Below the pieces are notes generated by a model, which worked only from the letters and a program-made list of their open reading frames with translations, was not told the origin of the DNA and did not search any database. The position numbers and the translations under genes are program-made. Of a stretch of 64,000 bases of DNA, positions 3,233-59,961 are shown piece after piece. The stretch comes from Prevotella sp. Rep29 (GTDB taxonomy: Bacteria; Bacteroidota; Bacteroidia; Bacteroidales; Bacteroidaceae): positions 1,116,001 to 1,180,000 of the forward strand of contig NZ_CP047159.1 of NCBI RefSeq assembly GCF_019551475.1, in the 5' to 3' direction. How positions within the stretch are numbered: position 1 is the stretch's first letter; each line of letters begins with the position of its first letter.

Positions 3233-3354
3233 GCGTGAACGCCGCGCTCCGCCGTAGCGAACACTGCGTTCCGCACTGTTAAACGTAGCGCCTCGCTCTG
3301 TTAAACGTAGCGCCCCGCTGTGTTGAGCGCAGCATGAGCGAGCGTTGAAATATG
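3233..3354. repeat. 22-bp-period tandem array, copy 1
   Basis: Units begin at 3233, 3255, 3277, 3299 and 3321, with a weak sixth at 3343. Units 3 and 4 share TGTTAAACGTAGCGCC and all carry a (G/A)AAC-like core followed by a GC-rich tail. The step is exactly 22 bp with no spacers between units. The array begins two bases after the permease stop and ends before the promoter of the next gene. It belongs to the window-wide family discussed in the findings. Confidence 0.75.
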
Positions 3355-3407
3355 CATGTCGTCAATCACGTTGTTGATAAGAAAAATGAAAGAAAAAGTG
3401 CTTTACA

Positions 3408-3439
3408 TTTGTCAAATCTACATTTTTTATTTATATTTG
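3408..3439 (+). promoter_or_regulatory. Bacteroidetes promoter for the P5C dehydrogenase gene
   Basis: A -33 TTTG (3408-3411), a 20-bp spacer and a -7 TATATTTG (3432-3439) match the Bacteroidetes sigma consensus. It gives a leader of roughly 32 nt before ATG 3478 and rules out the longer in-frame start at 3352. Confidence 0.8.
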
Positions 3440-3477
3440 CAAACAGATGGAAACTTAATCTTTTAATTAACAACAAA

Positions 3478-5103
3478 ATGAAAAATTCAGTTATTACATT
3501 CCCGGTGCCGGCAAACGAGCCCGTAAAAGCCTATCTGGCTGGCTCTCCGGAGCGCGTTGAACTCGAGAAAGAGTTGAAGCGCCAGAGCAAATTAGTGGTT
3601 GACATTCCAATTATCATCGGCGGTGAAGAGATTCGCACGGGCGATGTGGGCAAGGTGACTTGTCCGCACGACCATAAGCACGTGCTGGCTACTTACCACA
3701 AGGTGGGCAAGAAGGAAGTTGAAATGGCGGTCAAGGCTGCCATGAAAGCTTGGAAGGAATGGAGCCGTACGCCGTGGACAACACGCGCAGCTGTCGTGAT
3801 GAAGATGGCAGAGCTGCTCGCTACGAAGTATCGCCCCATCCTGAATGCTGCCACGATGCTCGGACAGAGCAAGAACATCTATCAGGCGGAAATCGACTCT
3901 GCATGCGAGACAATCGACTTCTTCCGCTACAACGTGCACTACGCTTCGAAGATTTACAGCATGCAGCCGAAAGATGGAGTAGGACACTTGAACCACATGG
4001 AATATCGTCCGCTGGAAGGATTCATCCTGGCAGTCACCCCGTTCAACTTCACGTCGATTGCATCCAACCTTTGCATGACGCCGGTTCTGATGGGTAACGT
4101 GGCGCTCTGGAAACCTTCAACGACCGCTTTGCTGAGCAACTACTATCTGATGCAGCTCTACAAGGAGGCAGGTCTTCCCGATGGTGTCATCAACTTCCTG
4201 CCGGGTAGCGGCGCGCTGATAGGCGAGGTGGCTACGCAGTCGAAATACTTCTCAGGCATTCACTTCACCGGTTCTACGGAGACGTTCAACTCACTCTGGC
4301 GTCAGGCAGGTCAGAACCTTGGCAAATACATCTCTTATCCGCGCCTCGTAGGTGAGACGGGTGGTAAGGACTTCATCTTCGTTCATCCTTCTGCAGATGC
4401 GAAGGCAGTGGCAACGGCAGCATTCTGCGGTGCGTTCGAGTTCCAAGGACAGAAGTGCTCGGCAGCCTCTCGCATGTACATCCCGAAGAGCCTCTGGGGT
4501 GATGTGCTGAAAGATATCAAGCGCATGGCGAAAGAAGTGAAGATGGGCGACGTGGCAGATGCGAAGAACTTCATCAACGCCGTGATTGACCAGGCTTCGT
4601 TCGACAAGTGCAAGTCGTATATCGACTATGCGAAGAAGGCGAAAGACGCTAAGGTCGTGATGGGCGGTAAGTGCGACAAGACGAAGGGTTGGTTTGTTGA
4701 GCCTACGGTTATCGAGACAACAAATCCGCGCTTCAAGTCGATGGTAGAAGAAATCTTCGGCCCGATTCTCACCGTTTATCCTTATGACGACAACAAGGTT
4801 GACGAGGCAGTTAAGCTCTGCGACGAGACTTCTCCTTACGGACTTACAGGTGCGGTGTTCGGACGTGACCGCCTTGCAGTAGAGAAACTTGCCGACAAGT
4901 TGAGCTATGCAGCCGGAAACTTCTACATCAACGACAAGCCGACAGGTGCTGTGGTTGGTATGCAGCCGTTCGGTGGTGCACGTGCGAGCGGTACGAACGA
5001 CAAGGCTGGTGGCGAGTTCAACCTCATTCGCTGGATTATCCCGCGTGTGATTAAGGAGACGCTTGTTTCGCCGACGGATTACCGTTACACCTATTTGAAA
5101 TAA
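3478..5103 (+). CDS. pruA: L-glutamate gamma-semialdehyde dehydrogenase (1-pyrroline-5-carboxylate dehydrogenase)
   Basis: Oxidises glutamate semialdehyde/P5C to glutamate with NAD+, the last step of proline (and ornithine) catabolism, in the cytoplasm. The aldehyde dehydrogenase fold is complete: NAD-binding 'TPFNFTSIASN', 'FTGSTETF', general-base Glu about 292 in 'GETGGKDF', nucleophile Cys about 327 in 'GQKCSAAS', and the C-terminal 'PFGGARASGTNDKAGG' typical of P5CDH. At 541 residues it is the normal size for the stand-alone enzyme, without a PutA proline dehydrogenase fusion. It stands alone with its own promoter and a strong terminator. Confidence 0.93.
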   Translation: MKNSVITFPVPANEPVKAYLAGSPERVELEKELKRQSKLVVDIPIIIGGEEIRTGDVGKVTCPHDHKHVLATYHKVGKKEVEMAVKAAMKAWKEWSRTPWTTRAAVVMKMAELLATKYRPILNAATMLGQSKNIYQAEIDSACETIDFFRYNVHYASKIYSMQPKDGVGHLNHMEYRPLEGFILAVTPFNFTSIASNLCMTPVLMGNVALWKPSTTALLSNYYLMQLYKEAGLPDGVINFLPGSGALIGEVATQSKYFSGIHFTGSTETFNSLWRQAGQNLGKYISYPRLVGETGGKDFIFVHPSADAKAVATAAFCGAFEFQGQKCSAASRMYIPKSLWGDVLKDIKRMAKEVKMGDVADAKNFINAVIDQASFDKCKSYIDYAKKAKDAKVVMGGKCDKTKGWFVEPTVIETTNPRFKSMVEEIFGPILTVYPYDDNKVDEAVKLCDETSPYGLTGAVFGRDRLAVEKLADKLSYAAGNFYINDKPTGAVVGMQPFGGARASGTNDKAGGEFNLIRWIIPRVIKETLVSPTDYRYTYLK

Positions 5104-5146
5104 TGTAGGTAGCGAAGCCGAAAGGCGCAGCTAACCTGTAAATACG

Positions 5147-5184
5147 AATAAACCCCAAAAGCCGGAAAGCTTTTGGGGTTTATT
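5147..5184. terminator. Bidirectional intrinsic terminator
   Basis: Perfect 16-bp inverted repeat (5147-5162 and 5169-5184) around a 6-nt CGGAAA loop. It has A-rich and T-rich edges, so it can end transcription of pruA and also of the convergent nucleotidase gene. Confidence 0.88.
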
Positions 5185-5223
5185 GTTTCTCGTTTTTTCA
5201 GTCAAGGGTAGAACCTTTAATTT

Positions 5224-5312
5224 TCAAATCAAATGAATTTGGTCATCAAATTCACTTGATTTGGTAATCAAATTCAGTGAATTTGGTTTTCGAGAGTTAA
5301 ACTTTGGTTGCT
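5224..5312. repeat. 22-bp-period palindromic array, copy 2
   Basis: Units with C at 5225, 5247, 5269 and a diverged one at 5291. The clearest unit reads CAAATTCAGTGAATTTG, a 17-nt odd palindrome followed by a 5-nt spacer. Neighbouring units vary in the core but keep the symmetry and the exact 22-bp step. It lies between two convergent genes. Confidence 0.75.
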
Positions 5313-5354
5313 GAACGTTGCCGTTTTGTCTGGCAAGAGTCCATTCAGGGGCTT

Positions 5355-7094
5355 TTATTTCTTGGGGAATATGATGGCTCTGTCGCGCTCGATGGCAGGC
5401 TTTGTCCATTCTTCGGGCACGAAGCGCCAATTGTCGTGTTTCTTTGGTTTGACTATTTTCATGCGTTCAATCTCGTTCATGAGGTAGTATCGCTGATCGC
5501 GTTCGCTCTCGAAAATGATGCGGTTCACGAGTTCTTCCCTCGGTATTCCCGCTCCTTTGGTGAGCAGTTCGCCGCCTCCGTTTCCGCGATAGCTGTTCAT
5601 TGCCACTCTGTACCATTGCTTCTCGTTGAAAGGCTCTCCGTTGCTCATGCGCAGTATGCGCACTTTCTCTCCGTCGGGTTTGGTCACGTCCACTTCGTAG
5701 TCAATACCTGCGGCGCTGTCGAAGTTGAAAGCGAGGTTTTTGAATCCGAATCGCTTCATGTCGTTATGCGTGTATTCGCTGAGGAGCATGATGTGGTCGT
5801 CGGGCGATGTCATGGTGTTGACCCACAGGTCGTAGCTCATTTCGAGGTGTTTGCGTATCTCCTCGCCCGTGAGTCTCAACACGTAGATTTGGTTTTCATA
5901 TCGGTAGAGGTTGAACATGTCGCTCACATACACCACGCCTTTTTGTATGCTGATGTCGAAGGCGAGTGGGGCGTTGAACGAGATGTCGGCACCTGTTATC
6001 TGCAGTTGCAGGTCGTGTATGAAGTCGGTGAATGCGGCATTTCCGAAATAGCAGTCGCGCGAATAGATGCTTTCTTCGAACACGCCGATGGGTCGGTGAA
6101 TGAAGTTGCTCACGCTGTCGATTGTCTCTTCGAAGCGTTTCATGTATGCCTCGTCGATTTCTTGTTGCTCGATGTTGACCACTTCGCCTGTTATTTCTTT
6201 CTTCAGGATTTGTCCTTTCTTGTTGATTTGGAGGTTGATTTCCGCATCAGCCACCATATAGGCGTTGGCTGAGGGGTTGAGCAGGAGCACGTCGTTGCCC
6301 TCTTGGTTTTTGACGATGCTTTTGTGTTGTGCGTGGTCGTGTCCGAAGAGAATTATGTCGAATCCCGGCACTTCCCTTGCCACGCGCATGGTGGCGTCTT
6401 CTTCATACTCGTCGGTGGTGATGCCTCCGTCTTTTCCCGAGTGGAAGAGTCCGATGATGATGTCGGGCTTTTCTGTCGTCTTGAGGTGGTTCACCCAGTA
6501 GCGTGCCGATGCGGTGATGTCTTCGAACCGTAGTCCGCTCCATAGTGATTCGCGCAACCAGTTGGGTATTGCGGGTGTGAGCATTCCGACGACGGCTATT
6601 TTCACGCCTTCGCGTTTGAATATGGCGTATGGCGCAACGTAGGGTTTGCCGGTTTTCGTGTCGATGATGTTGGCTCCGAGCATGGGGCATTCCACTTCTC
6701 GTATCCATTTGTCATACACCTCGTGTCCTGTTTCTATGTCGTGGTTTCCGATGGTCTGTGCGTCGTATTTCATGTAGTTGATGACTTCCGCCGCGACGTT
6801 CGGAATGTTGGGATTGATGTAGTTGCAGTAGTAGCACGTCGGTTGGCCTTGCAGGATGTCGCCGTTGTCGAGCAGCAGCAGATTGTTGCCGTAGTGCTTT
6901 CTCAGGCTGTCAACATAGGTGATGACGCGTGCCAGCGTTCCTTCTTTCGGCTTCCTGTTGATGAAGTCGTAAGGGAAGAAGCATCCGTGCACGTCGCTTG
7001 TCTGAATGATTCTCAACTTGACTGTCTTTGGTTTTGCCGTGATGAATGAATTAAAGAAGAATGCTGCCATACATAGGATAAATATTTTCTTCAT
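5355..7094 (-). CDS. Secreted 5'-nucleotidase / 2',3'-cyclic phosphodiesterase (UshA family)
   Basis: Periplasmic metallophosphatase that dephosphorylates nucleotides and related esters for salvage. It has a Sec signal peptide (residues 1-20, MKKIFILCMAAFFFNSFITA). The calcineurin-like metal ligands follow in order: SDVHG at 33-37, NGD near 77-79, GNHD at 116-119, HSG near 218-220 and GHDH at 251-254. The C-terminal half is the 5'-nucleotidase substrate domain, with 'GNGGGELLTKG' as the nucleotide-binding loop region. At 579 residues it is full length. It is divergent from the PAS gene and shares an overlapping promoter region with it. Confidence 0.9.
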   Translation of the reverse strand: MKKIFILCMAAFFFNSFITAKPKTVKLRIIQTSDVHGCFFPYDFINRKPKEGTLARVITYVDSLRKHYGNNLLLLDNGDILQGQPTCYYCNYINPNIPNVAAEVINYMKYDAQTIGNHDIETGHEVYDKWIREVECPMLGANIIDTKTGKPYVAPYAIFKREGVKIAVVGMLTPAIPNWLRESLWSGLRFEDITASARYWVNHLKTTEKPDIIIGLFHSGKDGGITTDEYEEDATMRVAREVPGFDIILFGHDHAQHKSIVKNQEGNDVLLLNPSANAYMVADAEINLQINKKGQILKKEITGEVVNIEQQEIDEAYMKRFEETIDSVSNFIHRPIGVFEESIYSRDCYFGNAAFTDFIHDLQLQITGADISFNAPLAFDISIQKGVVYVSDMFNLYRYENQIYVLRLTGEEIRKHLEMSYDLWVNTMTSPDDHIMLLSEYTHNDMKRFGFKNLAFNFDSAAGIDYEVDVTKPDGEKVRILRMSNGEPFNEKQWYRVAMNSYRGNGGGELLTKGAGIPREELVNRIIFESERDQRYYLMNEIERMKIVKPKKHDNWRFVPEEWTKPAIERDRAIIFPKK

Positions 7095-7110
7095 GTGTAA
7101 TATCTTTTAT

Positions 7111-7150
7111 TTTGTGTGCAAAAGTAAGCAAAAATTCTTATCTTTGCAAA
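7111..7150. promoter_or_regulatory. Overlapping divergent promoters, nucleotidase and PAS gene
   Basis: On the minus strand a -7 TACTTTTG (7119-7126, reverse complement) has a -33 TTTG at 7147-7150 with a 20-bp spacer. On the plus strand a -7 TATCTTTG lies at 7139-7146, 33 bp before ATG 7179, with no clear -33. The two elements interlock, so the genes may exclude or co-regulate each other. Confidence 0.7.
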
Positions 7151-7178
7151 AGAGAGATAAACAAATACAAAACGAAAA

Positions 7179-7520
7179 ATGGAAATGAGTTTTAACTGGG
7201 CGGAGGATATGAACTGCGCCGTCACGGTGTGTGACAAATCGGGAGTGATTGTGTTTATGAATCAGAAGTCGCGTGAGACGTTCTGTAAGAATGGCGAGTC
7301 GATGGTTGGTCGCTCCATGATACCTTGCCACAATGAGCGTTCGCAGGGAATCATCCGTGAGATGTTGGAGAAAGGAACGAGCAACAGCTATACGATTCAG
7401 AAGAACGGTGTGAAGAAGATGATTTATCAGACACCGTGGCGGGAGAACGGCGAGATAATGGGGCTCGTGGAAATCTCCATGGTCATTCCTGAAGAGATGC
7501 CGCACTATGTGCGCGGATAG
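7179..7520 (+). CDS. Single PAS-domain protein
   Basis: Small cytoplasmic protein of 113 residues that is almost entirely one PAS fold: 'MNCAVTVCDKSGVIVFMNQ' starts the domain and 'YQTPWRENGEIMGLVEIS' forms the last strands. No kinase, cyclase or DNA-binding domain is attached, so it probably senses a ligand or redox state and acts through a partner. A Cys pair (Cys 12 and 20) and further Cys near 35 and 48 are visible but are not a recognisable metal motif. It reads away from the nucleotidase and converges on the DUF5687 gene. Its stop lies inside the first unit of a 22-bp array. Confidence 0.8.
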   Translation: MEMSFNWAEDMNCAVTVCDKSGVIVFMNQKSRETFCKNGESMVGRSMIPCHNERSQGIIREMLEKGTSNSYTIQKNGVKKMIYQTPWRENGEIMGLVEISMVIPEEMPHYVRG

Positions 7521-7600
7521 GTCTTTTGCGAGCCGTGAACGTGCTCTTTGCAAAGAGTGAACGTGCTCTTTGCGGTGCGTGAAAGGGTCAGTTGCTTATC
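7513..7600. repeat. 22-bp-period array, copy 3
   Basis: Two near-identical units GTGAACGTGCTCTTTGC begin at 7535 and 7557. A diverged unit precedes them (7513, sharing CTTTTGC in phase) and another follows (7579, GTGAAAGG...TTGC). All steps are 22 bp. It lies between convergent genes and overlaps the stop codons of both, so the outer units also code for a few terminal residues. Confidence 0.7.
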
Positions 7601-9096
7601 GTGCTTCTGAAACCTTCGAGGTTTTCATATTTGCGCTTCATCATGCGTCTGTAGATGTTGCGTATCCATAGTTTGTGGGTTGCGATGAAGGCAAAGCCGA
7701 TGGCCATCAGCACGAGGTAAGTGGGTGTCTCGCCAATGACAAGTTTAAGCACCGAGATGAGAATGAGCGGCACGGCGAAGACGAGGATATTCACAAAGAG
7801 TTGCAGATAGTTGGTCTCCATGCTTCCTTTTCCGACGAATTTGCTGTTTAGCGGAATGGTCTGCTTGTTATATACTGCCATCTGGAAGAACAGGAAATAG
7901 AGAAATCCTGCCATGAAGACCATGACGGCGAGAAGCATCATCAGCGAGCACTTTCCCGTGACGACCATCGGAAGCATCAGCAGGAGGGGAAGCAGCAGGA
8001 GTGCGGTGTAGAAGTAGTATTTGGCGCGCAGGAGCGAGACAATGTTCTCTTGGCGCACCATCAGACACTCGATGTAGTTGCCTTCGTGGCACATGACCTT
8101 GACGAGAATCATGGCGCCGTAGATGCCGAAGTTGTAGATACACCAGAAGACGACCATATTGTTGTAAATATCGCTAAATGAAATAGCGAAGCTCAGGAGC
8201 GCGACCGCTACCGTAGCGAAGATAAATCCCTTCTTGATGTTCTTGTTGCGCATGATGCTTTTTACCTCTAACTTCAGGTATTCGCCCGTCTCCTCGAACC
8301 GGTCGAACATCTTGAACTGGCTGACGTGATGGAGCTTGGTCGTTTCCGTGCGCGACAACTCCGCATACACAAAGCGGTATTGCAGTCGGCGGTTGATGTA
8401 GATAAGTATCGCCAGCACCGCAAACAAAAAGAGCCAGGGAAGGGGTTTCCACGTTGCAAGCAGGTATCCCCCGTCGGCATAAAACTGGCAGCATTTTGCC
8501 ATGTCGGCACCTTCCCAGGCGTATGCCGGCAAGAAGATGAGGGCATAGACGATGAGTGGCAGCACCCACCAGGCTATATGGCGGTTGATGAGGCTCCTTG
8601 CCAGCATGTACCATTGGCTGTTGATGAGTATCAGCACGTAGAAGCCTGCCAGGCAACCGAGCGTGACTCCTATTCCCTCAGAAAAGACGATGGACATGAT
8701 GCTGTAGGGTATGAGCATGGCAAACCACGTGAGGTTGCCGATGCTGAGCAGCGAATTGGCTATGAAGCAGTCAATGCACGTGTATCGGGAAATGGGGAGG
8801 AGTATGTAGGGCTTGATTTGCTGCGAAGGCGTTTGCTGTGCGATGAACCTGAAAAAGAAATCCAAGGCAAGGATGAATGGCGCAATGCCGAATATCAGCT
8901 CTGATGCCGTGGTGCTATGGCTCTCGTTGGCAATCAAGGCAAACATGATGGCGAAGCCTATCAGGTAGAGTAATATGAAGGCAGCGCCAATCCACAAAAA
9001 TACTTTTGCCACTTTGTTTTGTGTGACGGCGGGATTGCGCTTGTCTGCCAGACTGTTATGCGTGCGCAATGTCTTAAAGAGCTGGAACTTGTTCAT
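7588..9096 (-). CDS. DUF5687 family integral membrane protein
   Basis: A 502-residue polytopic protein with about 11-12 hydrophobic segments and short loops (for example 'VFLWIGAAFILLYLIGFAIM' near residue 30). The pattern matches DUF5687, a Bacteroidetes family resembling ABC-2 permeases that often pairs with an ATPase gene. No ATPase gene is next to it here, so the transport role is an inference. It lies 2 bp downstream of the lolA-like gene and appears to be the third gene of an ftsK-lolA-DUF5687 operon. Confidence 0.75.
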   Translation of the reverse strand: MNKFQLFKTLRTHNSLADKRNPAVTQNKVAKVFLWIGAAFILLYLIGFAIMFALIANESHSTTASELIFGIAPFILALDFFFRFIAQQTPSQQIKPYILLPISRYTCIDCFIANSLLSIGNLTWFAMLIPYSIMSIVFSEGIGVTLGCLAGFYVLILINSQWYMLARSLINRHIAWWVLPLIVYALIFLPAYAWEGADMAKCCQFYADGGYLLATWKPLPWLFLFAVLAILIYINRRLQYRFVYAELSRTETTKLHHVSQFKMFDRFEETGEYLKLEVKSIMRNKNIKKGFIFATVAVALLSFAISFSDIYNNMVVFWCIYNFGIYGAMILVKVMCHEGNYIECLMVRQENIVSLLRAKYYFYTALLLLPLLLMLPMVVTGKCSLMMLLAVMVFMAGFLYFLFFQMAVYNKQTIPLNSKFVGKGSMETNYLQLFVNILVFAVPLILISVLKLVIGETPTYLVLMAIGFAFIATHKLWIRNIYRRMMKRKYENLEGFRSTISN

Positions 9097-9098
9097 GT

Positions 9099-9707: not shown

Positions 9708-9756
9708 CGTTATTGCTTTTTGTCAGTATGACGCTCGTTTGCGAACAAGGTTTAAC

Positions 9757-15569: not shown

Positions 15570-15735
15570 TTTTCTACCTAAAATGTTTTATCCCTCGTAG
15601 GGGCGGATTGATGTATCCGCCCGCAAAGAAACAATCTGTATAATCTGCGCAATCTGCGGTTAATACTATTCGAGTGAATCAATGTATCCGCAGAAAACAA
15701 TCCGTGTAATCTGTGCAATCTGCGGTTAATGACGT
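15570..15735. repeat. REP-like palindrome and short duplicated sequence
   Basis: A palindrome GGGCGGAT-tgatgt-ATCCGCCC lies at 15601-15622. Then AATCTG(C/T)GCAATCTGCGG occurs twice (about 15642-15660 and 15708-15726). The same modules occur in reverse order at 59384-59465. No gene is visible here. Confidence 0.7.
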
Positions 15736-15747
15736 TTCATTTAATTG

Positions 15748-16137
15748 TTAAAATGTCAAGATTTCACCCGAAAAATGCTTACAAACGGGATGAAAGTTTT
15801 TGAATAGATATACGGCTGTTTCCGAATAATTATGCAAAACGTGCATATTTTTCACCGAAAAATGGTGGAAATTGCTTCCCAAAGTGCCACTTTCGGGCTT
15901 CAAAAGTGCAACTTTGGGAATGCGAAAGTGGCACTTTGGGGAGGTCAAAGTTGAACTTTCGCAAATCGCGTCTGCATGTTTTTGGTATAAAATGTGCTTT
16001 TTGCGTTTCTAACGCGCTGATTTTCAAGAAACTTTTCACAGGAGCGCTTAAAATGCTTCCGCCCTCGTCACAGTCCACCGACTTAAATATACAGCCTCTG
16101 AGTGCGTTAATATTTGTAAAGAAACCTAAAACGTCAT
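15748..16137. repeat. 390-bp intergenic repeat element, copy 1
   Basis: Almost identical (about nine bases in ten by eye) to the reverse complement of 59579-59961. It ends in conserved segments (TAAATATACAGCCTCTGAG on one side, ATAGATATACGGCTGTTTCC on the other) and carries a 22-bp palindrome array in the middle. It has no transposase. An 82-codon open frame through it is conserved in length but changes mostly at the amino-acid level, so I treat it as non-coding. Confidence 0.8.
15878..15965. repeat. 22-bp-period palindromic array, copy 4
   Basis: Within the 390-bp element, AAAG-type cores have their G at 15884, 15906, 15928 and 15950, exactly 22 bp apart. The cores are AAAGTGCCACTTT, AAAGTGCAACTTT, AAAGTGGCACTTT and AAAGTTGAACTTT. 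Three of the four are perfect odd palindromes. Confidence 0.85.
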
Positions 16138-16224
16138 CAGAAAAATGTCAAGGAAAATGACAAATGGAAGTCAGGAAAGTTAAGCCGGTAGAATCAGTGG
16201 AAAGTCTCATTTCTTTTGTCTTGG

Positions 16225-16290
16225 AGTAGGGGCGGATTGGTGTATCCGCCCGATTTGCTCCTGCGGGTCGATACATCAATCGACCCCTAC
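16225..16290. repeat. Pair of REP-like palindromes
   Basis: GGGCGGAT-tggtgt-ATCCGCCC (16229-16251, one extra base) and GGGTCGAT-acatca-ATCGACCC (16265-16286) stand side by side. Matching forms recur at 15601, 59415, 60025 and 60060. Their arms differ (GGATCC-like or GTCGAC-like) but the 8-6-8 layout is constant. Confidence 0.75.
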
Positions 16291-35124: not shown

Positions 35125-35362
35125 GGCAGATGCTGTTTATGTATGTTTATGCAGAGGTGGAACTGTTGACGTTCGTTTTGTAAACTCTTGAATTTCAACA
35201 TGTTAAATACTGCTTTCCAAAAGTTCAACTTTTAGCTTGCAAAAGTTGAACTTTTAGGCGATGAAAGTTGAACTTTCAGGACGCAAAAGTTGAACTTTTG
35301 GAAAGTGAAAGTTCAACCGTATATTTATACGCCCTTTTCCGTATGTTTATGCAAACATGTTT
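35125..35362. repeat. Intergenic repeat element type B, copy 1 (with 22-bp array)
   Basis: Similar over its whole length to 45130-45350: both share TTTTGTAAAC then AATTTCA, a 22-bp array, and an end reading CGCCCTTTTCCGTATGTTTA. Inside, AAAG cores have G at 35223, 35245, 35267, 35289 and 35311, exactly 22 bp apart. Cores are AAAGTTCAACTTT once, AAAGTTGAACTTT three times, then a half unit. All four full cores are perfect odd palindromes. Confidence 0.85.
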
Positions 35363-35390: not shown

Positions 35391-35438
35391 TCTCAAACAG
35401 CACGTTCATCCATCGTAAACGGCACGTTTGCGCTCATG
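35391..35438. repeat. Two-unit 22-bp repeat
   Basis: AAACAGCACGTTC (35395) and AAACGGCACGTTT (35417) are 22 bp apart. The sequence type matches the array at 42255, while the neighbouring array at 35219 is of AAAG type. It is out of phase with that array. Confidence 0.55.
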
Positions 35439-42254: not shown

Positions 42255-42318
42255 TAAACGGCATGTTAAAGCATCGTAAACGGCATGTTTGCGACGGCTA
42301 AACGTTGTGTTTGCGCAA
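42255..42318. repeat. 22-bp-period array, copy 6
   Basis: TAAACGGCATGTTA, TAAACGGCATGTTTGCG and TAAACGTTGTGTTTGCG start at 42255, 42277 and 42299, exactly 22 bp apart. Core AAAC-N5-GTTT is an odd inverted repeat. The third unit contains the stop codon of the convergent methyltransferase gene. Confidence 0.75.
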
Positions 42319-45129: not shown

Positions 45130-45350
45130 TTCTGCATATTTATGCATAAGTGGGGCTGTTGGTGTGTGTTTTGTAAACCACTGAATTTCAGAACGTTAGG
45201 ATGGGCTTTCCAAAAGTGCCACTTTCGCACTCCAAAAGTGGCACTTTCAGGAGGTGAAAGGGGAACTTTTGCAAGCTAAAAGTGGCACTTTTGGAAAGTG
45301 AAAGTTCAACTGCATATTTATACGCCCTTTTCCGTATGTTTATACAAGGG
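45130..45350. repeat. Intergenic repeat element type B, copy 2 (with 22-bp array)
   Basis: Partner of 35125-35362. AAAG cores have G at 45216, 45238, 45260, 45282 and 45304, exactly 22 bp apart. Cores are AAAGTGCCACTTT, AAAGTGGCACTTT, AAAGGGGAACTTT (symmetry broken), AAAGTGGCACTTT and a half unit AAAGTTCAAC. The conserved end CGCCCTTTTCCGTATGTTTA follows. The 45104-45443 gap holds this element and nothing else visible. Confidence 0.85.
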
Positions 45351-45443: not shown

Positions 45444-48400
45444 CTATTCTTGTTTGAGGGAATCTGCCGGCATTTCCGGTATGCTGTCGGGTGTGGCTTG
45501 CGATGTCTTTTTCTTCTTCCGTCCGAACAAATCACGGAAATTGTTGAAGTCTTTTTTGATAATAAGACCGATGCCCTGCGTGTTGAGTGAACTGCGTGTG
45601 AAATAGCGGTCGTTTGTCTGGTTGTAAACCTTGACGGCAAGGTTGCCATTGGGGAAGAGCAGGTAGCGGATATCGAAGTCACCGATGAACGAAGTGGTGG
45701 CGTTGGGGTTGTCGCGGTAGCCGAACTGTCCGTTGATGAGCAGTCGGTTGTTGAGCAGTCGTCCGGACAGGATGCCCTCATATTCGGCGTTGTTCCATCC
45801 TTCCGTTCCGGTCGAGATGTTGGCTCCGAAGTTCCAGTTGCTGTTGTTCACCACACTTCCCAAGACCGTATTGATTTGCTGGCTGAGTGTTCCGCTGAGC
45901 AGACTTTGCATGGCGAGACTTGCCTGGCTGGGAGAGGTGCCGTCTTGGTTGGCGTTGTTGGCACCCTGCGTGTAGAAGCGTCCGATGGTCAGGAGGTAAA
46001 TCACTTGCTGGTTGAGTTCCTCTTCGCTGTTGATGAGCGAGCGCACCATCTGTTGCGCATCGCTGCTGACGGTTGGCAGTTGGAGGTCGAAGTCGGCTTT
46101 GGGTGCACTTGGCGTTCCGGTGATGTTCATCAGGCAGTTGACACGGATGTTGTTGGATGAGAACGAGCGTCCGATGTTGAGGTCGGAGAGACTGACGCCA
46201 TTGATGGTGTGGGCGGCTTGAAGGTTGAGTGTCGCTTCGTAGGGGTCGCCACCGAAGACGATGGTTCCGCCTTCTTGGAATTCAAAGTCTTTCTTGATGA
46301 TGTTTTGTATGGTCATCTTATACACCCCGTGGTCGATGATGTAATTGCCGAAAATGTCGAAGCTTCCTTTATTGAAATAGGTGGCTCGGAGCACGCCATT
46401 GCCGTGCAGGTCGATATAGTCGCCGCTCTCTTCGTTCATGATGAGGCGGAGTGTCAGGTCGGGTGTGGTGTTGATGAGGAAGTTGATGTGGAGGTTGGTT
46501 GGGATGGATATGTTTTGCGACGTGGTAGCCGTTTCCGTCTCCTCTTTCGCGATGGCAATCTCCAGCGGTTTGTAGAAAAGCGGATTCTTCTCCGTGACGT
46601 CATGCCAATGGATGAACTCTTGCTTCTTTACGGCATTGGGACTGTCCGCATTATATTTGATGATGGAATTTTCTTGTGGCGTCGCCTCGATATCGAGTAC
46701 GACCTCGTTGGTCTGGTTGCTGATGTGGCAGGTGCCTGTGGCATAGACCGTTCCGCAGAAGCTGTCATCGCCGAAGTCTTTGACGTCGAATGCCAGCACG
46801 TTGTCAGCCTCGATGTTGAGGTCGTATATCCAGTTTTTGAGGCATGTGTGGTAGATATCTCCGTTGACGACGGCGAGATGTTTGTTCTTGTCGAACACGC
46901 TGTCTGCGCGGAAGATGAGGTGGTCGGGCAGAAGGCGTATCGTATCGTTGTGCAGGGTGTATGTCGTGTTGAGGGGTTCTATGCCGACATCTCCGTTAGC
47001 CACGACTTCCCCTTCGATGTTAATGTTCTTGAGTGGTCCGAAGATGCGGAGGCTTCCTGTTGCCCGCGCATCCATCTTGTGCATGACGCCCTTCAAGTAG
47101 TTCTCCAGAAATTCAATCCTCGTGTTGTTCAAGTCGCAGTTGAGGGTGAGGATTTCCGGCGTAAGGGCAATGTCTCCGTTGATGAGTGTCTGCCCCAGCG
47201 GACCATCGTCTGCCACACCGTGGATGTTGATGGTGTTGTCGGTCTTGTTCCAGTCGGCGGTTGCGCGCAATGCTCCCAGCCTTCCATCTACGAAGGTGAA
47301 GTCCTCTATGCTTAGCGCAGCGTTTGCTGTAGTGTTCGCAAAGACCGATGCGAGCGTGGCTTTCCCTGAGGCACTTCCCCCGAAGAACACGTCATCCACG
47401 TTGAGAATGTCGGAGAAGAAACCGATATCAACGTTCTTCAGGTCAATGTTGACTGTGTCTTGTATCTCTGTTGTGGCTATTCCCGAAACGATGACGTGCT
47501 GTTCTCCGTTCTGGATGGCGAAATGGTCGATGATGAGATGTTTGTCGCTGTAAACGATATCCGAAGGCTCCACGTTCCACGTCGCTTCGTTGACCGACAA
47601 CTGGGAGGGGTGTATGATGGTGTGGGCTGCGGGCTGTCCCTGTTCGTTCCTGAAGAATTGTGTCTCAGTAGAAATGACACCTTTCAGGTGGCGCAGTTCG
47701 TCATGGTTGTCCAGGATGAAATCAGCTTTGGTATTGTTCTCGGCAGCTTTGGCAGATATCGCAAAGTCGAAGAAATTGCCGTTGCTCATCAGTTTTTTTG
47801 TCGAGCCGTCCAGTTTCAGCGTGTCGTCAACGGTTTTCAGAACGATTTCCGTTTGGTTGTACTGGTTGTCGTTGTATGTAAACTCGGGCAGGATGCACGT
47901 CAAGTCCACCGCCTTCTTCTCATCGTTGATAGAAGCGTTGACGGTCATCGGGCGTTTGAGTTGTAGGTCGATGTCGAAGAATGCTTTCAGCCAGTCGGTC
48001 TTTGTGATGTTGGCATTGAGCGAGAGCTGGTTGGGTCGTATGTTTTTTGTTGCGGGAAGTCCCGGCAGGGTGGGGAGCTTGTCTTTGATGGCGTTGGTAA
48101 TGCTGTGTGCCAAAGTGCTGTAATCGTAGTCGCCGACAATCTGTATGTTGCCGAAGTCGCCATGAATGTCGATGTTCTGGTTGCCACGCTCAGAAAGACT
48201 TTCTATGATCAGTTGCTCCATCTGGTACTGTTCTTCCGGCGATTGCAATGTGAAATTGTTCAGTTCAACCCTTCCGGTCAACTTGTTGAGCGACTTTCCC
48301 TGAAGGTTGATTTTCGTGTCGAAGCTCACTTTTGCGGTATTCCATTTCTTGTCCAGACGGAGAATGGCAGCGTTAAACTGGTGAACCTTCGCCGTAAGGT

Positions 48401-53263: not shown

Positions 53264-53267
53264 TATT

Positions 53268-53891: not shown

Positions 53892-53894
53892 GAT

Positions 53895-54521
53895 ATGGAA
53901 CACGCAATAAGTTTATTCTTTCGGTCGATATTTGTCGACAACATGATTTTCGCCTTCTTCCTTGGCATGTGTTCATACCTTGCCGTTTCGAAGACGGTAA
54001 AGACTTCGGTAGGATTGGGCTTGGCTGTGACCTTTGTGTTGACAGTTACTGTTCCTGTCAATTATTTGCTTCAGACGAAGGTGCTTGGTCCCGATTGCCT
54101 GATAGAAGGAGTTGATTTGAGCTATCTCAGTTTCATCCTTTTCATCGCGGTGATAGCGGGCATGGTGCAGTTGGTTGAGATGACGGTGGAGAAATATTCT
54201 CCCTCGCTATATGCTGCATTGGGCATCTTCTTACCTTTGATAGCAGTCAACTGTGCCATCATGGGTGCCTCGCTCTTCATGCAGCAGCGCATTCTGTTGG
54301 ATCCCGAAAATTCTCAGGCAATCACCAGTGTCTGGGATGCCATCGTCTATGGTTTCGGTTCGGGCTTGGGCTGGACATTGGCAGTGGTGGCATTGGGTGC
54401 CATTCGTGAAAAGATGCAGTATAGCGATGTTCCTAAACCCTTGCAGGGACTTGGCATCGTCTTTATCACTGTCGGACTGATGGCAATGGCAATGATGTGT
54501 TTCTCCGGACTTAATATATAA
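53895..54521 (+). CDS. nqrE: Na+-translocating NADH:quinone reductase subunit E
   Basis: 208 residues, six helices, homologous to NqrD with opposite topology. Cys 26 in '[12 protein letters not shown]' and the later Cys in '[11 protein letters not shown]' complete the iron site. Three bases separate it from nqrD and seven from nqrF. Confidence 0.95.
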
Positions 54522-54528
54522 ATAAGGT

Positions 54529-55797
54529 ATGGTACAGTTTATATTATACAGCATAATCGTATTTCTGGCAACGATACTTCTGCTCGTAGTCATTTTGCTC
54601 GTAGCCAAGAAATACCTTTCCCCGAGTGGAAATGTCAATATTGAAATCAATGGTGAGCGGACCATCAACGTCCCACAAGGCAATAACCTGATGGCAACGC
54701 TCAACGAGAACGGGATATTCCTTCCGTCAGCCTGTGGAGGAAAAGCCTCTTGCGGTCAATGCAAGGTGCAGGTTCTGGAGGGAGGCGGAGAGATTCTCGA
54801 TTCCGAGCGTCCGCACTTCACCCGTAAGGAAATAAAAGACCACTGGCGATTGGGTTGCCAATGCAAGGTGAAGGGCGATTTGACAATCAAAGTGCCCGAG
54901 AGCGTCATGGGTGTTAAGGAATGGGAGTGTACGGTCATTTCCAACAAGAACGTGTCGTCGTTCATCAAGGAGTTTATCGTCGCACTGCCCGAAGGTGAAC
55001 ACATGGACTTCATTCCCGGTTCGTACGCTCAGATTAAGATTCCTGCATACGACTGCATCGACTATGACAAGGACTTCGATAAGAACGATATCGGTCCAGA
55101 CTATCTGCCGTCATGGGAGAACTTCAATATCTTCTCGTTGAAGGCTCACAATCCGGAAGACACAATTCGCGCCTATTCCATGGCAAACTATCCGGCAGAG
55201 GGCGATCGCATCACGCTGACTGTGCGCATCGCAACGACACCGTTCAAACCAAAGCCCGAAGTGGGCTTCCAGGATGTGCCGACGGGCATCGCCTCCAGTT
55301 ACATCTTCTCACGTAAGCCGGGCGATAAGGTGATTATGAGTGGTCCTTATGGCGATTTCCATCCCATCTTCGATTCTAAAAAGGAGATGATATGGGTCGG
55401 TGGAGGTGCCGGAATGGCTCCTCTGAGAGCACAAATCATGCACATGACTAAAACGCTGAACACGCGCGACCGCGAAATGCACTATTTCTATGGCGCACGT
55501 GCGCTCGTCGAGGCATTCTTCGTGGAAGACTTTCTGGAGTTGGAGAAAGAGTTTCCGAACTTCCATTTCCACCTTGCGCTCGACCGTCCCGATCCGAAAG
55601 CAGACGAGGCTGGCGTGAAATACACGGCTGGTTTTGTGCATCAGGTGATGTATGAAACCTATCTGAAAGACCATGAGGCACCAGAGGATATCGAATATTA
55701 CATGTGTGGTCCCGGTCCGATGTCGAAAGCCGTGCAGGGCATGCTCGACTCGTTGGGCGTAGAACCCGAAAGCATCATGTTCGACAATTTCGGATAA
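54529..55797 (+). CDS. nqrF: Na+-translocating NADH:quinone reductase subunit F
   Basis: NADH entry subunit, 422 residues. An N-terminal helix (3-25) is followed by a 2Fe-2S ferredoxin domain (Cys in 'SACGGKASCGQCK' and 'RLGCQC'), an FAD domain ('RAYSMANYPAEGD') and an NADH domain ('MIWVGGGAGMAPLRAQ', 'YYMCGPGPMSKAV'). Last gene of the operon; a strong terminator follows. Confidence 0.96.
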   Translation: MVQFILYSIIVFLATILLLVVILLVAKKYLSPSGNVNIEINGERTINVPQGNNLMATLNENGIFLPSACGGKASCGQCKVQVLEGGGEILDSERPHFTRKEIKDHWRLGCQCKVKGDLTIKVPESVMGVKEWECTVISNKNVSSFIKEFIVALPEGEHMDFIPGSYAQIKIPAYDCIDYDKDFDKNDIGPDYLPSWENFNIFSLKAHNPEDTIRAYSMANYPAEGDRITLTVRIATTPFKPKPEVGFQDVPTGIASSYIFSRKPGDKVIMSGPYGDFHPIFDSKKEMIWVGGGAGMAPLRAQIMHMTKTLNTRDREMHYFYGARALVEAFFVEDFLELEKEFPNFHFHLALDRPDPKADEAGVKYTAGFVHQVMYETYLKDHEAPEDIEYYMCGPGPMSKAVQGMLDSLGVEPESIMFDNFG

Positions 55798-55804
55798 TGA
55801 AACA

Positions 55805-55899
55805 GAGTGCCGTAAAGAAAGGCACTCCGTATAGAAAACCAAAAAGCGAGCCGACTGAGGAATGTTTATGTAAAACACCTCAGTCGGCTCGCTTTTTTT
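55805..55899. terminator. Double hairpin and bidirectional terminator
   Basis: First hairpin GAGTGCC/GGCACTC (55805-55827) without T-run. Then a 20-bp stem AAAAAGCGAGCCGACTGAGG (55841-55860) with CCTCAGTCGGCTCGCTTTTT (55878-55897) and A and T runs. It ends nqr and, on the other strand, the TlpA-like gene, whose stop codon lies within the T-run. Confidence 0.88.
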
Positions 55900-56434
55900 A
55901 TTTGCTGAATTGTTTCTCGATGTAATTGATTAGGTCGTTGCCTATCAGTCCGTTTTGCAAAATGATCCCATCTTGAGCAACAATCACCGTGTGAGGAATA
56001 GCATACACGTTGAATGCCCGTGCCACGGTGTTTTCCCAGCCATTGAGCTCAGAGACGTTCGTCCATGACATGTTCAACTCCTTGATGGCATTTTTCCAAC
56101 TGGTCTCATCCGTATCCAGCGAGATACTGATGATGCCCAATCCCTTATCCTTGTATTTGTTGTAGAGTTCAGCCACCCGAGGCATCTCGTAGAGGCAGGG
56201 TCCGCACCAGCTTGCCCAGAAGTCGATGATGGTGAGCTTGTGCTTGCTGATTTCATCGAGGGCAGAGATGGTTGTCCCCTCGGGGGTGTTCATGCTGAAA
56301 TCATCAATCCGGTTGATACTTTCAGCCACTTCCTCTTGTGCCTGTTCGGTCGTCTCCGTCTGCTTAGGCACCTGTTTGCACGAAGCGAACAAGATGGCAG
56401 CAAGTGCCATCCCGATCAATTTCCTGTCAATCAT
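55898..56434 (-). CDS. Thioredoxin-like (TlpA/ResA family) lipoprotein
   Basis: 178 residues: a lipoprotein signal (Cys 19 in 'ILFASC'), a linker to about residue 45, and a thioredoxin fold with active site 'FWASWCGPC' (near 73-81) and cis-Pro loop 'YAIPHTVIV'. It is probably a periplasmic disulphide reductase, for example for cytochrome maturation or oxidative repair. Located 12 bp downstream of prs on the same strand. Confidence 0.87.
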   Translation of the reverse strand: MIDRKLIGMALAAILFASCKQVPKQTETTEQAQEEVAESINRIDDFSMNTPEGTTISALDEISKHKLTIIDFWASWCGPCLYEMPRVAELYNKYKDKGLGIISISLDTDETSWKNAIKELNMSWTNVSELNGWENTVARAFNVYAIPHTVIVAQDGIILQNGLIGNDLINYIEKQFSK

Positions 56435-56445
56435 ACACCTTATTA

Positions 56446-57384
56446 TTATATAAGATATTGCGAACTGATACTCTGGTTATCTACCACACGGCGGATGGTT
56501 TCGGCAAACATGTCGGCAACCGACAGTTGCTTAACCTTTGCGCAGCGGTGGGAGTAGGGGATAGAGTCGGTGAACACGATTTCCTCGAGGGCGGAATTCT
56601 GTACGCGGTCGCTCGCCGGTCCGCTCATGACACAATGGGATGCACATGCGCGCACACTCTTTGCGCCAGCTTCCTTCATCACGTCGGCTGCCATCGTAAT
56701 TGTTCCTGCTGTGTCAACCATGTCATCCACTATGATGACGTTCTTGTCCTTCACGTCGCCGATAATCTGCATGCTTTCCACCACGTTTGCACGGGCACGC
56801 GTCTTGTTGCAGATGACAAACGGGCAACCGAGGTATTTTGCGTATGCGTTGGCACGTTTCGAGCCGCCTACGTCAGGCGATGCGATGCAGATGTCTTCGA
56901 GTTTCAGGCTCTGCAGATACGGCAGGATGACGCCTGAGGCATACAGGTGGTCAACAGGAACGTCGAAGAATCCTTGTATCTGGTCGGCGTGCAGGTCCAT
57001 GGTAATCACGCGGTTGACACCAGCCACTGAGAGGAGGTCGGCAACCAGTTTCGCGCCGATGCTGACGCGCGGTTTGTCCTTTCTGTCTTGCCGTGCCCAT
57101 CCGAAATAGGGTATCACGGCGTTGATCTGTCGTGCTGATGCCCTTTTGGCAGCGTCAATCATCAGGAGCAATTCCATCAGATTGTCGGAGTTGGGGAAGG
57201 TGCTTTGAACAAGGAACACGTCGCGTCCGCGAATAGATTCTTCATACGACACAACAAACTCTCCGTCAGAGAATTTGGTGATCTGTAGTTTTCCTAAAGG
57301 ACAGCCTAGACTGTTGCAAATTTTTTCTGCCAAGTATTGGGTACTTGTGCCAGAAAACACGATAAAGGAGTTCTGCTCACTCAT
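56446..57384 (-). CDS. prs: Ribose-phosphate pyrophosphokinase (PRPP synthetase)
   Basis: Makes PRPP from ribose-5-P and ATP for nucleotide, His and Trp synthesis. 312 residues with 'RDVFLVQSTFPNSDNLMEL' (N-terminal), the flag-loop 'IPYFGWARQDRKDKPR', 'TMDLHADQIQGFFDVPVDHL' and the PRPP loop 'VIIVDDMVDTAGTI'. All catalytic residues are present. The TlpA-like gene follows 12 bp downstream. Confidence 0.95.
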   Translation of the reverse strand: MSEQNSFIVFSGTSTQYLAEKICNSLGCPLGKLQITKFSDGEFVVSYEESIRGRDVFLVQSTFPNSDNLMELLLMIDAAKRASARQINAVIPYFGWARQDRKDKPRVSIGAKLVADLLSVAGVNRVITMDLHADQIQGFFDVPVDHLYASGVILPYLQSLKLEDICIASPDVGGSKRANAYAKYLGCPFVICNKTRARANVVESMQIIGDVKDKNVIIVDDMVDTAGTITMAADVMKEAGAKSVRACASHCVMSGPASDRVQNSALEEIVFTDSIPYSHRCAKVKQLSVADMFAETIRRVVDNQSISSQYLI

Positions 57385-57424
57385 TGCTCTTTTGTTGTTT
57401 TTAGTTATATAATGTGGAGTTTCA

Positions 57425-58030
57425 TTAAATGGCTTTATACAATTTCGTGAAATGAATAATCAAATTCCTGTAGTCTTGTTCGTTGTGAATATCGAATCTT
57501 GTCCAAAGGTCGTTGCAGATGACCGCACCTCCGAATCCCAGTTCTTTCAGCACCTTGATGTTTTCCAGGCGCACTCCTCCCAGCGCATATACATGCTTGT
57601 CGATGAGCCCTCTGTGAGCGGCTTCTTTCAGTTGGTCATAACTGAACGATGCTTTCCCGTTGGCGTCGGAAATGCTGTCAAAAACGTCTCTCAGAAATAC
57701 ATATTTCGATTGTTTCTTCGCGCTTTTCAGTTCTTCGAGAGACCGACACGTGCGTGATATCTTGCCCTTGTAGCCTTGCGGCGCCTCGGCATCGGCTTCG
57801 TCCAGGTGAATGCCGGCGAGCCCATATTCGTTCTTCAGGTAATAATTGTCATGGACAACAATCTTCTTGTGATATTCTTCCGGCAGCAGCGACAGCAGAC
57901 GCTCAGCATATACAGGGGAGGAGTCAGGCTTATTGAGATGAAGCATTTCCATCCCTTCTTCGAAGAGTGTTTCGAGGATTTTGTCTTCTTCCACAAAGTA
58001 TGTGGGGCTTGTCATGATTATGAGTTTCAT
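57425..58030 (-). CDS. Thiamine-phosphate synthase-like protein (ThiE/TenI fold)
   Basis: 201 residues with TIM-barrel order: 'VVHDNYYLKNEYGLAGIHLD', 'ISRTCRSLEELKSAKK', 'YALGGVRLENIKVLKELG'. Motifs agree with ThiE/TenI, but the pyrophosphate-binding Gly/Ser loops are weak and other thi genes are absent nearby. The family in Bacteroidetes contains many stand-alone members, so it may be a TenI regulator-like or salvage enzyme. It lies between prs and the divergent nspC. Confidence 0.72.
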   Translation of the reverse strand: MKLIIMTSPTYFVEEDKILETLFEEGMEMLHLNKPDSSPVYAERLLSLLPEEYHKKIVVHDNYYLKNEYGLAGIHLDEADAEAPQGYKGKISRTCRSLEELKSAKKQSKYVFLRDVFDSISDANGKASFSYDQLKEAAHRGLIDKHVYALGGVRLENIKVLKELGFGGAVICNDLWTRFDIHNEQDYRNLIIHFTKLYKAI

Positions 58031-58163
58031 CTCTAATGCTTTTCAAGTGCAAATGTATAAAAAATATAGCAAACACACAATAATATCCGAGATAATTATC
58101 GTTCCTTTTCTTGAAAAATGAAAATTATTGATGTGCTTGGCATATAATCTCGGAAATTATGTT

Positions 58164-58171
58164 TAAATTTG
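58164..58171 (+). promoter_or_regulatory. -7 element of nspC
   Basis: TAAATTTG, 27 bp before ATG 58199. It overlaps the longer in-frame start at 58169, which is why that start is rejected. Confidence 0.65.
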
Positions 58172-58198
58172 CATGAGATTATATTGTTGTTTGAAGAA

Positions 58199-59365
58199 AT
58201 GGAAGCTAATCATCCATATACCGACATTCGGCGTCCGACCTATGTGTTGGACGAGGCTCGTCTGCTCCGTAATCTCGAACTCATAGCGAGCGTGGCGCGG
58301 CGGGCTGATGTGGAAATCATCCTGGCGTTCAAGGCGTATGCGCTGTGGAAGACGTTTCCCGTATTCCAGAGATATGTCCATTCGACAACAGCCAGTTCCC
58401 TGAACGAGCTGCGGATGGCAGTTGAGAAATTCGGACGACCGCCCCATACCTATTCACCGGCTTATGAGGAGCACGAGATTGAAGAGATTGCCCGCCATTC
58501 CAGCCATCTCACCTTCAACTCCCTCTCGCAGTATGAACGGTTCCATGAGCAGGCACGGCTTGCGAACCCTGCACTCTCGTTGGGACTGCGCATCAATCCT
58601 GAATACAGCGAGGTGGGAACTGAACTGTACAACCCCTGCGCTCCGGGAACACGTTTCGGCGTGACGGCAGACAAGCTGCCCGAGCGCCTGCCCGACGACC
58701 TGGAGGGATTCCATTGCCATTGCCATTGCGAGAGCGGTGCTGATGTCTTTGTGCGGACGCTGGCGCATATTGAGGAAAAGTTCTCACGATGGTTTTCCCA
58801 GATTCGGTGGATTAACTTCGGTGGCGGACATCTGATGACGCGCAAAGACTATGATGTGGAACTGCTGATAGCGACATTGAGGGAGTTCAAGAAACGCTAT
58901 CCCCACCTGCAGGTCATTCTCGAGCCGGGCAGCGCATTCGCATGGCAGACGGGCGACCTTGTGGCGCAAGTCGTTGACGTGGTGGAGGATAAAGGAATAC
59001 GCACGGCGATTCTCAACGTGAGCTTCACATGCCACATGCCCGATTGTCTGGAAATGCCTTATCAGCCCGCAGTCACCGGTGCAGCGCAGGTAGATGCCGT
59101 GGAAGACCTTCCAACAAAAGATTTCTGTTATCGGCTCGGAGGCAACAGTTGCCTGTCGGGCGACTTCATGGGGTATTGGCAGTTTGCACACGAACTGCAG
59201 ATAGGGGAGAATATCATCTTCGAAGACATGCTGCACTACACAACGGTAAAGACAAACATGTTCAACGGAGTCGCTCATCCAGCCATCGCCTTCCTTCGTA
59301 CCGACGGACAACTGGAATTGTTGCGCGAATACACCTATGACGATTATCTTTCGCGAATGGATTGA
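58199..59365 (+). CDS. nspC: Carboxynorspermidine decarboxylase
   Basis: PLP enzyme of the alternative polyamine pathway (carboxy(nor)spermidine to (nor)spermidine). 388 residues from ATG 58199. PLP Lys about 45 in 'ILAFKAYALWK'; phosphate and substrate sites 'FHCHCHCESGADVFVRT', 'INFGGGHLMTRKDYD' and the C-terminal 'LGGNSCLSGDFMGYW'. The partner carboxyspermidine dehydrogenase gene is not in the window. It is divergent from the thiE-like gene. Confidence 0.93.
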   Translation: MEANHPYTDIRRPTYVLDEARLLRNLELIASVARRADVEIILAFKAYALWKTFPVFQRYVHSTTASSLNELRMAVEKFGRPPHTYSPAYEEHEIEEIARHSSHLTFNSLSQYERFHEQARLANPALSLGLRINPEYSEVGTELYNPCAPGTRFGVTADKLPERLPDDLEGFHCHCHCESGADVFVRTLAHIEEKFSRWFSQIRWINFGGGHLMTRKDYDVELLIATLREFKKRYPHLQVILEPGSAFAWQTGDLVAQVVDVVEDKGIRTAILNVSFTCHMPDCLEMPYQPAVTGAAQVDAVEDLPTKDFCYRLGGNSCLSGDFMGYWQFAHELQIGENIIFEDMLHYTTVKTNMFNGVAHPAIAFLRTDGQLELLREYTYDDYLSRMD

Positions 59366-59383
59366 ATTTCTCAACCTTCCCAT

Positions 59384-59518
59384 TAACCGCAGATTATACA
59401 GATTTTTTCTTTGCGGGTCGATACATTGATCGACCCCTACGAAGGATAAACATTTTTAGGTAGAAAAACCTAATCATAATTCTTAATTCTTAATTTTTAA
59501 TTCTTAATTCTTAATTAT
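59384..59518. repeat. REP-like palindrome, shared sequence and simple repeat
   Basis: ATTAACCGCAGATTATACAGATT (59384 on; reverse of the 15630-15660 type), then GGGTCGAT-acattg-ATCGACCC (59415-59436), then a 10-bp AATTCTTAAT-type tandem (about 59476-59518). In opposite order these match the region at 15570-15735. Confidence 0.7.
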
Positions 59519-59578
59519 CGAAGCTTTTCTCCCGTCAGGCATTCCCTCCCAATTTGGGGGAGGGTTAGGGAGGGGCTC

Positions 59579-59961
59579 TTAAGGTTTCTTTACAAATAAT
59601 AACGCGCTCAGAGGCTGTATATTTAAGTCGGTGGACTGTGGCGAGGGCGGAAGCATTTTAAGCGCTCCTGCGAAAAGTTTTCTGAAAATCAGCGGATTAG
59701 AAGCACGAAAAGCATATTTTATACCAAAAACATGCGGACGTGATTTGCGAAAGTTCAACTTTGACCTTGCAAAAGTGCCACTTTCGCATTCCCAAAGTGG
59801 CACTTTTGAAGCCCGAAAGTGGCACTTTTGGAAGCAATTTTCGCCGTTTTTCGGTGAAAAATATGCACGTTTTGCATAATTATTCGGAAATAGCCGTATA
59901 TCTATTCAAAAACTCCCGTCCCGTTTGTAAGCATTTTTCGGGTGAAATCTTGACATTTTAA
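59579..59961. repeat. 390-bp intergenic repeat element, copy 2 (inverted)
   Basis: Reverse-complement partner of 15748-16137, with about one base in twelve different. It carries the array at 59748. Confidence 0.8.
59748..59832. repeat. 22-bp-period palindromic array, copy 8
   Basis: AAAG cores with G at 59753, 59775, 59797 and 59819. Cores are AAAGTTCAACTTT, AAAGTGCCACTTT, AAAGTGGCACTTT and AAAGTGGCACTTT, all perfect odd palindromes. Confidence 0.85.

Follow-up and report, generated by a model that had tools for sequence, protein, structure and literature searches.

Intergenic elements with palindromic units at a constant 22-bp pitch in Prevotella sp. Rep29 and other Prevotella genomes

The stretch analysed here (the window) covers 64,000 nucleotides, positions 1116001-1180000 of the 2.73-Mb single-contig genome of Prevotella sp. 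Rep29, and carries intergenic arrays of short, mostly palindromic units that follow one another at a pitch of 22 bp. The neighbouring genes are ordinary and encode DNA polymerase IV, seryl-tRNA ligase, a SpoU methylase, a YegS-like kinase and a TamB-like protein. A whole element of the main family, 214 bp in length, lies on the plus strand at 35140..35353, in the convergent spacer that separates the DNA polymerase IV gene from an 874-aa open reading frame, and it reaches from 86 bp to the left of its first unit centre to 62 bp to the right of its last. Its core consists of four palindromes AAAGTTSAACTTT in 22-bp steps (35220..35298; centres 35226, 35248, 35270 and 35292; no strand is assigned to this or any other array or anchor), and a 25-bp anchor palindrome at 35181..35205 (score 22.4) is centred 33 bp away from the centre of the first unit. 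The second 214-bp element (45133..45346, plus strand), between the convergent YegS-like and TamB-like genes, contains a four-unit array of the variant AAAGTGSCACTTT, with one AAAGGGGAACTTT, at 45213..45291, and its anchor palindrome at 45174..45198 (score 20.0) stands at the same distance of 33 bp, centre to centre, from the first unit. Two more four-unit arrays, at 15881..15959 and 59750..59828, sit one in each copy of an inverted duplicate of 395 nt (15736-16130 and 59579-59973; 93% identity), the copies of which are 43 kb apart.

The initial annotation, made from this DNA alone, had described eight main arrays and a two-unit one at 35395, all stepping by exactly 22 bp. These nine places were read in a 22-base register and then given the best 44-base lag-22 score near their start. 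The eight main arrays do step by 22 bp, with 29-35 identities of 44 (35 at 3233, 35223 and 59753; 33 at 5225 and 15884; 31 at 7513 and 45216; 29 at 42255), and 35395, with only 22/44, cannot stand as an array alone. Scanning the window for lag matches, with a minimum of 26 in 44 bases, gave 10 places at 22 bp and 0, 3, 1 and 1 places at 20, 21, 23 and 24 bp. Against 500 column shuffles per array, palindromy had p 0.0 at five arrays (5225, 15884, 35223, 45216 and 59753), was borderline at 3233 (p 0.052) and 42255 (p 0.058) and was absent at 7513 (p 0.70). Among the arrays outside the main family, the one at 5226..5284 has three second-family units (AAATYMAVWKRATTT) between convergent genes, the one at 42256..42312 has three AAACGGCATGTTT-like units between the seryl-tRNA ligase and SpoU methylase genes, the GC-rich one at 3233..3342 lies between two tandem genes, and the one without a palindrome occupies 7525..7590. 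One sequence family comprises the arrays at 15884, 35223, 45216 and 59753, half of the eight main ones, and the inverted duplicate holds two of these, so the window alone exaggerates the variety of unit sequence, which is properly visible in other genomes.

The comparison across species covered 327,658 intergenic bases from 10 Prevotella genomes, some named below by handles such as G016, with P. ihumii left out; loci L001-L030 and P. ihumii were pattern-fetched. It yielded 126 intergenic arrays at 22 bp against 3, 18, 11 and 9 at 20, 21, 23 and 24 bp and none in shuffles; some of the lag matches are simple repeats, for example the CA run at L248:11225. The excess over neighbouring periods, which the initial annotation had made the test of its claim, is clearly present. 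Counts of intergenic matches at lags 20/21/22/23/24 were 0/2/37/2/0 in Rep29, 1/1/17/4/0 in G003, 0/0/21/1/0 in G016, 0/6/16/2/2 in G069, 1/0/19/0/1 in G017 and 0/0/9/0/2 in G062, and the small samples of G004, G006 and G010 gave 2, 2 and 4 arrays at 22 bp, respectively. Ten members of the order, about 241 kb in all, gave one such array. The main Rep29 unit AAAGTKSMACTTT formed 201 forward pairs when the gap was left free from 3 to 15 (reversed control 0), and those among the matches listed all had a gap of 9, that is, a pitch of 22; the second Rep29 family (AAATYMAVWKRATTT) formed 20 forward pairs genome-wide with gaps of 1-13 allowed, 20/20 at 22 bp (control 0). In G016, centre distances of 22, 44 and 66 bp were counted 104, 69 and 36 times, and those of 21 and 23 bp once and never. 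Letter-blind lag scans across species thus bear out that the period is kept while the unit sequence changes. Other periods were also seen, with intergenic repeats of 7, 14 and 21 bp predominating over 22 in G009 (L067-L071) and eight intergenic lag matches at 41 bp in G016 (L076-L097).

A pitch of 22 bp is about two helical turns, and the placement of repeated sites on one face of the DNA is consistent with these data. Phased A-tracts producing intrinsic curvature would be another reason for such a pitch. Many units contain AAA and TTT, and the mean curvature z, computed from wedge angles, was 3.65 in G017 and 1.66 in G010 (3 arrays); it was -0.48 in Rep29, 0.15 in G016, 0.76 in G004 and -0.23 in P. 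ihumii. General curvature was rejected because it is not raised in four of the six genomes, and this explanation appears extremely improbable.

Palindromy was judged from raw dyad counts, per-array column shuffles and arm-pairing counts, not from the unit matrices, which are dyad-seeded and symmetric by construction. The raw dyads AAAGT-N3-ACTTT in Rep29 (79 against 0.82 expected) and ATTTG-N3-CAAAT in G016 (12 against 0.6) far exceed expectation. Retention of the palindrome in most arrays, as the initial annotation had it, holds for the ten genomes as a whole (79 of 126 arrays above column shuffles at 0.05, 64 at 0.01), though not for every array, and is lower in G069 (3/16), G003 (8/17) and G016 (8/21). 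The arms are symmetric in 105 of 136 Rep29 units, so that the two arms change together: the half-sites pair as GTT/GTT in 73 units, GTG/GTG in 32 and mixed GTT-GTG in 6. The small p for this covariation carries no weight, because the copies are related. As a separate observation, AAAGGG half-sites in Rep29 pair with AAAGTT (15/16) or AAAGTG (1), never with themselves.

The letters of the palindromes are largely specific to the species. The Rep29 unit pair is present in only 2 of 40 genomes, Rep29 itself and G006, and the Rep29 array was found in nine named stretches, seven from P. ihumii, one from Prevotella sp. RGIG4794 and one from a Solobacterium metagenome-assembled genome; it was unmatched in plasmid records, phage records and viral contigs. 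Other species carry GTAATTTGA.TCAAATTAC (G016), GCAAAAGGC.GCCTTTTGC (G004), TCTTTTAC...GTAAAAGA (G010), CAAAACC...GGTTTTG (G017) and an imperfect CAAANTCAATGANTTTG (G062). With regard to presence in relatives, the Rep29 letters are mostly absent there, and what is present is the 22-bp architecture built of other palindromes. Rep29 and P. ihumii have a palindrome in common, as do G044 and G060 (by eye), and turnover is therefore slower than speciation. In P. ihumii, AAAGTTSAACTTT and AAACATATATGTTT are mixed in one array at about equal pitch, which the even palindrome shifts by half a base. Stretch L244 of G017 additionally shows more 22-bp families at 2507 and 6891, with the palindromes TTGTCTTATAAGACAA and TGACGTCA.

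The number of units is also constrained. Of the Rep29 arrays in an unselected sample, 19/24 are quartets with even steps, as are 9/12 arrays of G004, and all 11 pattern-fetched Rep29 arrays have four units. Both end motifs occur in 22 of 35 Rep29 arrays (3 of the 22 right ends were placed at an inner motif), and in 15 of these 22 the offsets are 86 and 62 bp, giving 214 bp in total; copies with 2, 3 and 5 units keep the same offsets and measure 170, 192 and 236 bp. The three inter-unit spacers of Rep29 differ from each other yet recur at like positions across copies. In G017, units 1-4 each hold their own sequence in the ten copies read, one of which lacks units 2-4, and each of the nine copies that fit both end patterns measures 186 bp. 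Given fixed offsets and position-specific spacers, the elements therefore spread as wholes, and the arrays gain and lose exact 22-bp steps. Rep29 (214 bp) and G017 (186 bp) thus show a trait of miniature inverted-repeat transposable elements (MITEs), namely a short non-coding element with defined ends. With regard to terminal inverted repeats, the G017 ends TGTAAATATTTTTC and AGAATTATCTTTACA resemble one another when inverted, and the Rep29 ends are themselves near-palindromic. In the sister pair G003/G042, a 95% alignment passes through one orthologous array and ends at the start of another; a clean empty site was not found in the YegS spacer. Unit gain and loss in 22-bp steps would also be expected if the arrays were ordinary slippage minisatellites whose period is an accident of ancestry. 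This is very unlikely, as unrelated palindromes have the pitch in common across species and inside arrays of P. ihumii and G006, four recurs as the unit number, and units and spacers hold position-specific sequence.

A palindrome of 25 bp near TAACNNNTTGANNNTCAANNNGTTA, termed the anchor, lies beside many arrays at a distance typical of the species. The favoured distance to the first unit is 33 bp in Rep29 (16/22; 69 bp in 4), 68 bp in G016 (18/36) and 21 bp in G017 (10/12), and is split in G004 and G010; distances were scored with a G016-derived model that accepted weak scores (at least 4), so some of them are chance. Beside the G003 arrays no anchor was seen. The anchor is present at one mismatch in 28 of 60 genus genomes (97 forward matches against 6 for the reversed pattern) and exactly in 3 of 119 order genomes, Rep29 included (control 1); since only one or zero mismatch was allowed, these searches are no proof of confinement to the genus. 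The idea that anchor distances are multiples of 11 was dropped, as 21, 33, 43 and 68-69 do not all fit.

The arrays are almost exclusively intergenic, with 96 unit sites between and 2 within genes in Rep29 and 174 and 45 in G016. Among spacers of at least 150 bp, classed approximately from genes called by a custom script, arrays occupy 8/17 convergent, 11/50 tandem and 4/38 divergent spacers in Rep29, 14/26, 20/78 and 4/23 in G016, and 5/5, 2/25 and 5/8 in G004. The bias towards convergent spacers would fit a role in the chromosome instead of a multiplying repeat, with the quartets that follow genes bound by a nucleoid protein, attracting gyrase or serving as a roadblock where convergent transcripts meet; such roles have reportedly been proposed for the bacterial interspersed mosaic elements (BIMEs) of E. 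coli. Counting against it, the divergent spacers of G004 make that species a misfit, a multiplying repeat purged from promoters would give an equal bias, and positions are not kept: around three orthologous genes in 25 relatives (65 loci), arrays occur in 6 flanks, and the Rep29 neighbours were not found beside these genes. A chromosomal role is thus possible, though rather doubtful.

Self-complementary units located after genes could also form one RNA stem-loop per unit at 3' ends. The transcribed strand should then show more G.U than A.C. When tandem spacers were read in the direction of transcription, the counts of G.T to A.C mismatches were 17:17 in Rep29, 80:68 in G016, 8:12 in G004 and 4:4 in G010. 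Apart from four tRNAs, no Rfam match reached the gathering score in the window. RNA hairpins were rejected for want of a G.U bias and are highly improbable. The terminator finder fires on the array units themselves and is unusable for terminators between gene and array.

Taken together, the elements may represent a dispersed class of non-coding intergenic DNA whose core is a quartet of palindromic sites at 22-bp pitch for a diverging dimeric protein, a reading that we consider about evenly balanced. Each palindrome would bind one dimer of a candidate DNA-binding protein, and four dimers spaced by about two turns could bind cooperatively on one face. The specificity of the protein would diverge and element copies would be replaced to match, and the bound protein or a partner would most likely multiply the elements in trans. 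More tentatively, the whole genus might possess a fast-diverging DNA-binding protein or paralogous set that reads two-turn-phased quartets at gene ends, in dozens to hundreds of places in each genome, with protein and sites rewriting each other between species at constant pitch and copy number, and an undescribed kind of element spreading them. The observation in the initial annotation is confirmed as a whole and its interpretation is supported; additions to it are the rule of four units, the host elements of fixed length, the 25-bp anchor and the preference for convergent spacers.

Several results weigh against the proposed quartet of protein sites. No protein that binds the sites was found; 47 of 126 arrays lack significant palindromy; in G016, where 30 of 47 arrays are evenly stepped and 13 of these have four units and 10 five, the preference for quartets is weaker; G009 is nearly without a 22-bp signal (1); and target-site duplications were not found around 22 Rep29 elements (p 0.88) or nine G017 elements (p 0.49). 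The others concern the Y1 (IS200-type) transposase. Y1_Tnp genes occur in 4/6 and 4/9 genomes searched and are absent from 7 of the 15 array-bearing genomes searched, namely Rep29, G003, G017, G042, G055 (81% complete), G062 and G063; the four Y1 genes of G004, G006 and G010 all lack a neighbouring array; and the three G016 copies share about 0.9-1.1 kb at 92-96%.

These data also bear on the alternative that the arrays are non-autonomous partners moved by a Y1 transposase, in the manner of repetitive extragenic palindromes (REPs) and REP-associated tyrosine transposases (RAYTs). In at least one species, G016, transposase and array are linked, which is a lead on how the elements are copied and counts for the main reading as well: of the 6 flanks of 1.5 kb around the three IS200-like copies, 5 contain arrays built of the G016 palindrome (both sides at L138 and L139, one side at L136), where the chance for a random 1.5-kb stretch is 0.123. 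At L138 an array begins at about 2099, next to the shared transposase unit, whose end is at 2096. Similar flanking pieces also stand between two small arrays in L095, one of the sampled stretches. The flanks are not independent, because the three copies are so alike, and the transposon may instead insert beside arrays. Moreover, the G016 protein scores 38.1 bits where the IS200 cut-off is 55, and the REP transposase model does not match it. With seven array-bearing genomes lacking the gene and four Y1 genes unflanked, movement of the arrays by Y1 is unlikely.

The combination of constant spacing and copy number with changing letters is unusual and testable. It predicts a DNA-binding protein in a major gut and oral genus, and the arrays would provide a letter-blind signature for locating its sites in each species. 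They could show how very many chromosomal sites shift specificity together, and the genus-wide system, if true, would be a bacterial counterpart of fast protein-site turnover.

Two further features of the window were noted. REP-like repeats, in which a GTAGGGG head goes with a palindrome (GTAGGGGCGGATTGATGTATCCGCCC or a GTCGAT variant), flank the 15884 and 59753 arrays (15597-16290 and 59412-60085); six such heads lie around these two arrays, another is in coding sequence at 46239, and 400 kb elsewhere held six more, and the repeats look like classical REPs, although Rep29 has no Y1 transposase. Four tRNA genes, Gly-Leu-Leu-Gly, are located at 60917-61408.

No account of such arrays in Prevotella was found in the open-licence literature, a scope outside which most subscription papers fall, and PMC5771137, as far as its text was available, has nothing that bears on them. 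Plasmid iterons are protein sites in direct repeat, each of about two helical turns, at one origin beside the rep gene, whereas the Prevotella arrays are many chromosomal copies. One of the nearest known systems is BrickBuilt, a MITE of Porphyromonas gingivalis with a 23-nt repeat in variable number, IS5-like terminal repeats and target duplications, which is a single sequence in that species plus P. gulae according to the available part of its description, where 22-nt tandem repeats are also mentioned for P. gingivalis strain W83 (PMC4596501). Both are dispersed intergenic elements of the same bacterial order with a close-period tandem repeat between fixed flanks; as far as that part of the description goes, the Prevotella elements differ in their 22-bp period, mostly four palindromic units, letters that vary by species and the lack of any duplication found (PMC4596501). 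The BrickBuilt 23-nt consensus AGAYCATARTATCCTCTCRTRTG is matched neither in period nor in unit letters. Like the REP/BIME/RAYT system, in the portion of the source available, the arrays are abundant intergenic palindromes that differ by species and keep complementary arms, and those of G016 bracket a Y1 gene; unlike REPs, the units are short, often AT-rich phased quartets, and the Y1 gene is lacking from 7/15 array genomes searched (PMC2817692). The REP-type GTAG or GTGG head is absent from the unit and spacer consensus of Rep29, G016, G004 and G017. Finally, at Tn7-like ends, in the accessible text, transposase sites of about 22 bp form arrays, with four of them at the Tn7 right end, and the Prevotella arrays likewise have repeats of about 22 bp, often four; the Tn7 repeats bound a gene-bearing transposon, whereas the Prevotella arrays are palindromic and standalone (PMC8649781), those of Rep29 lying kilobases apart among the matches listed.

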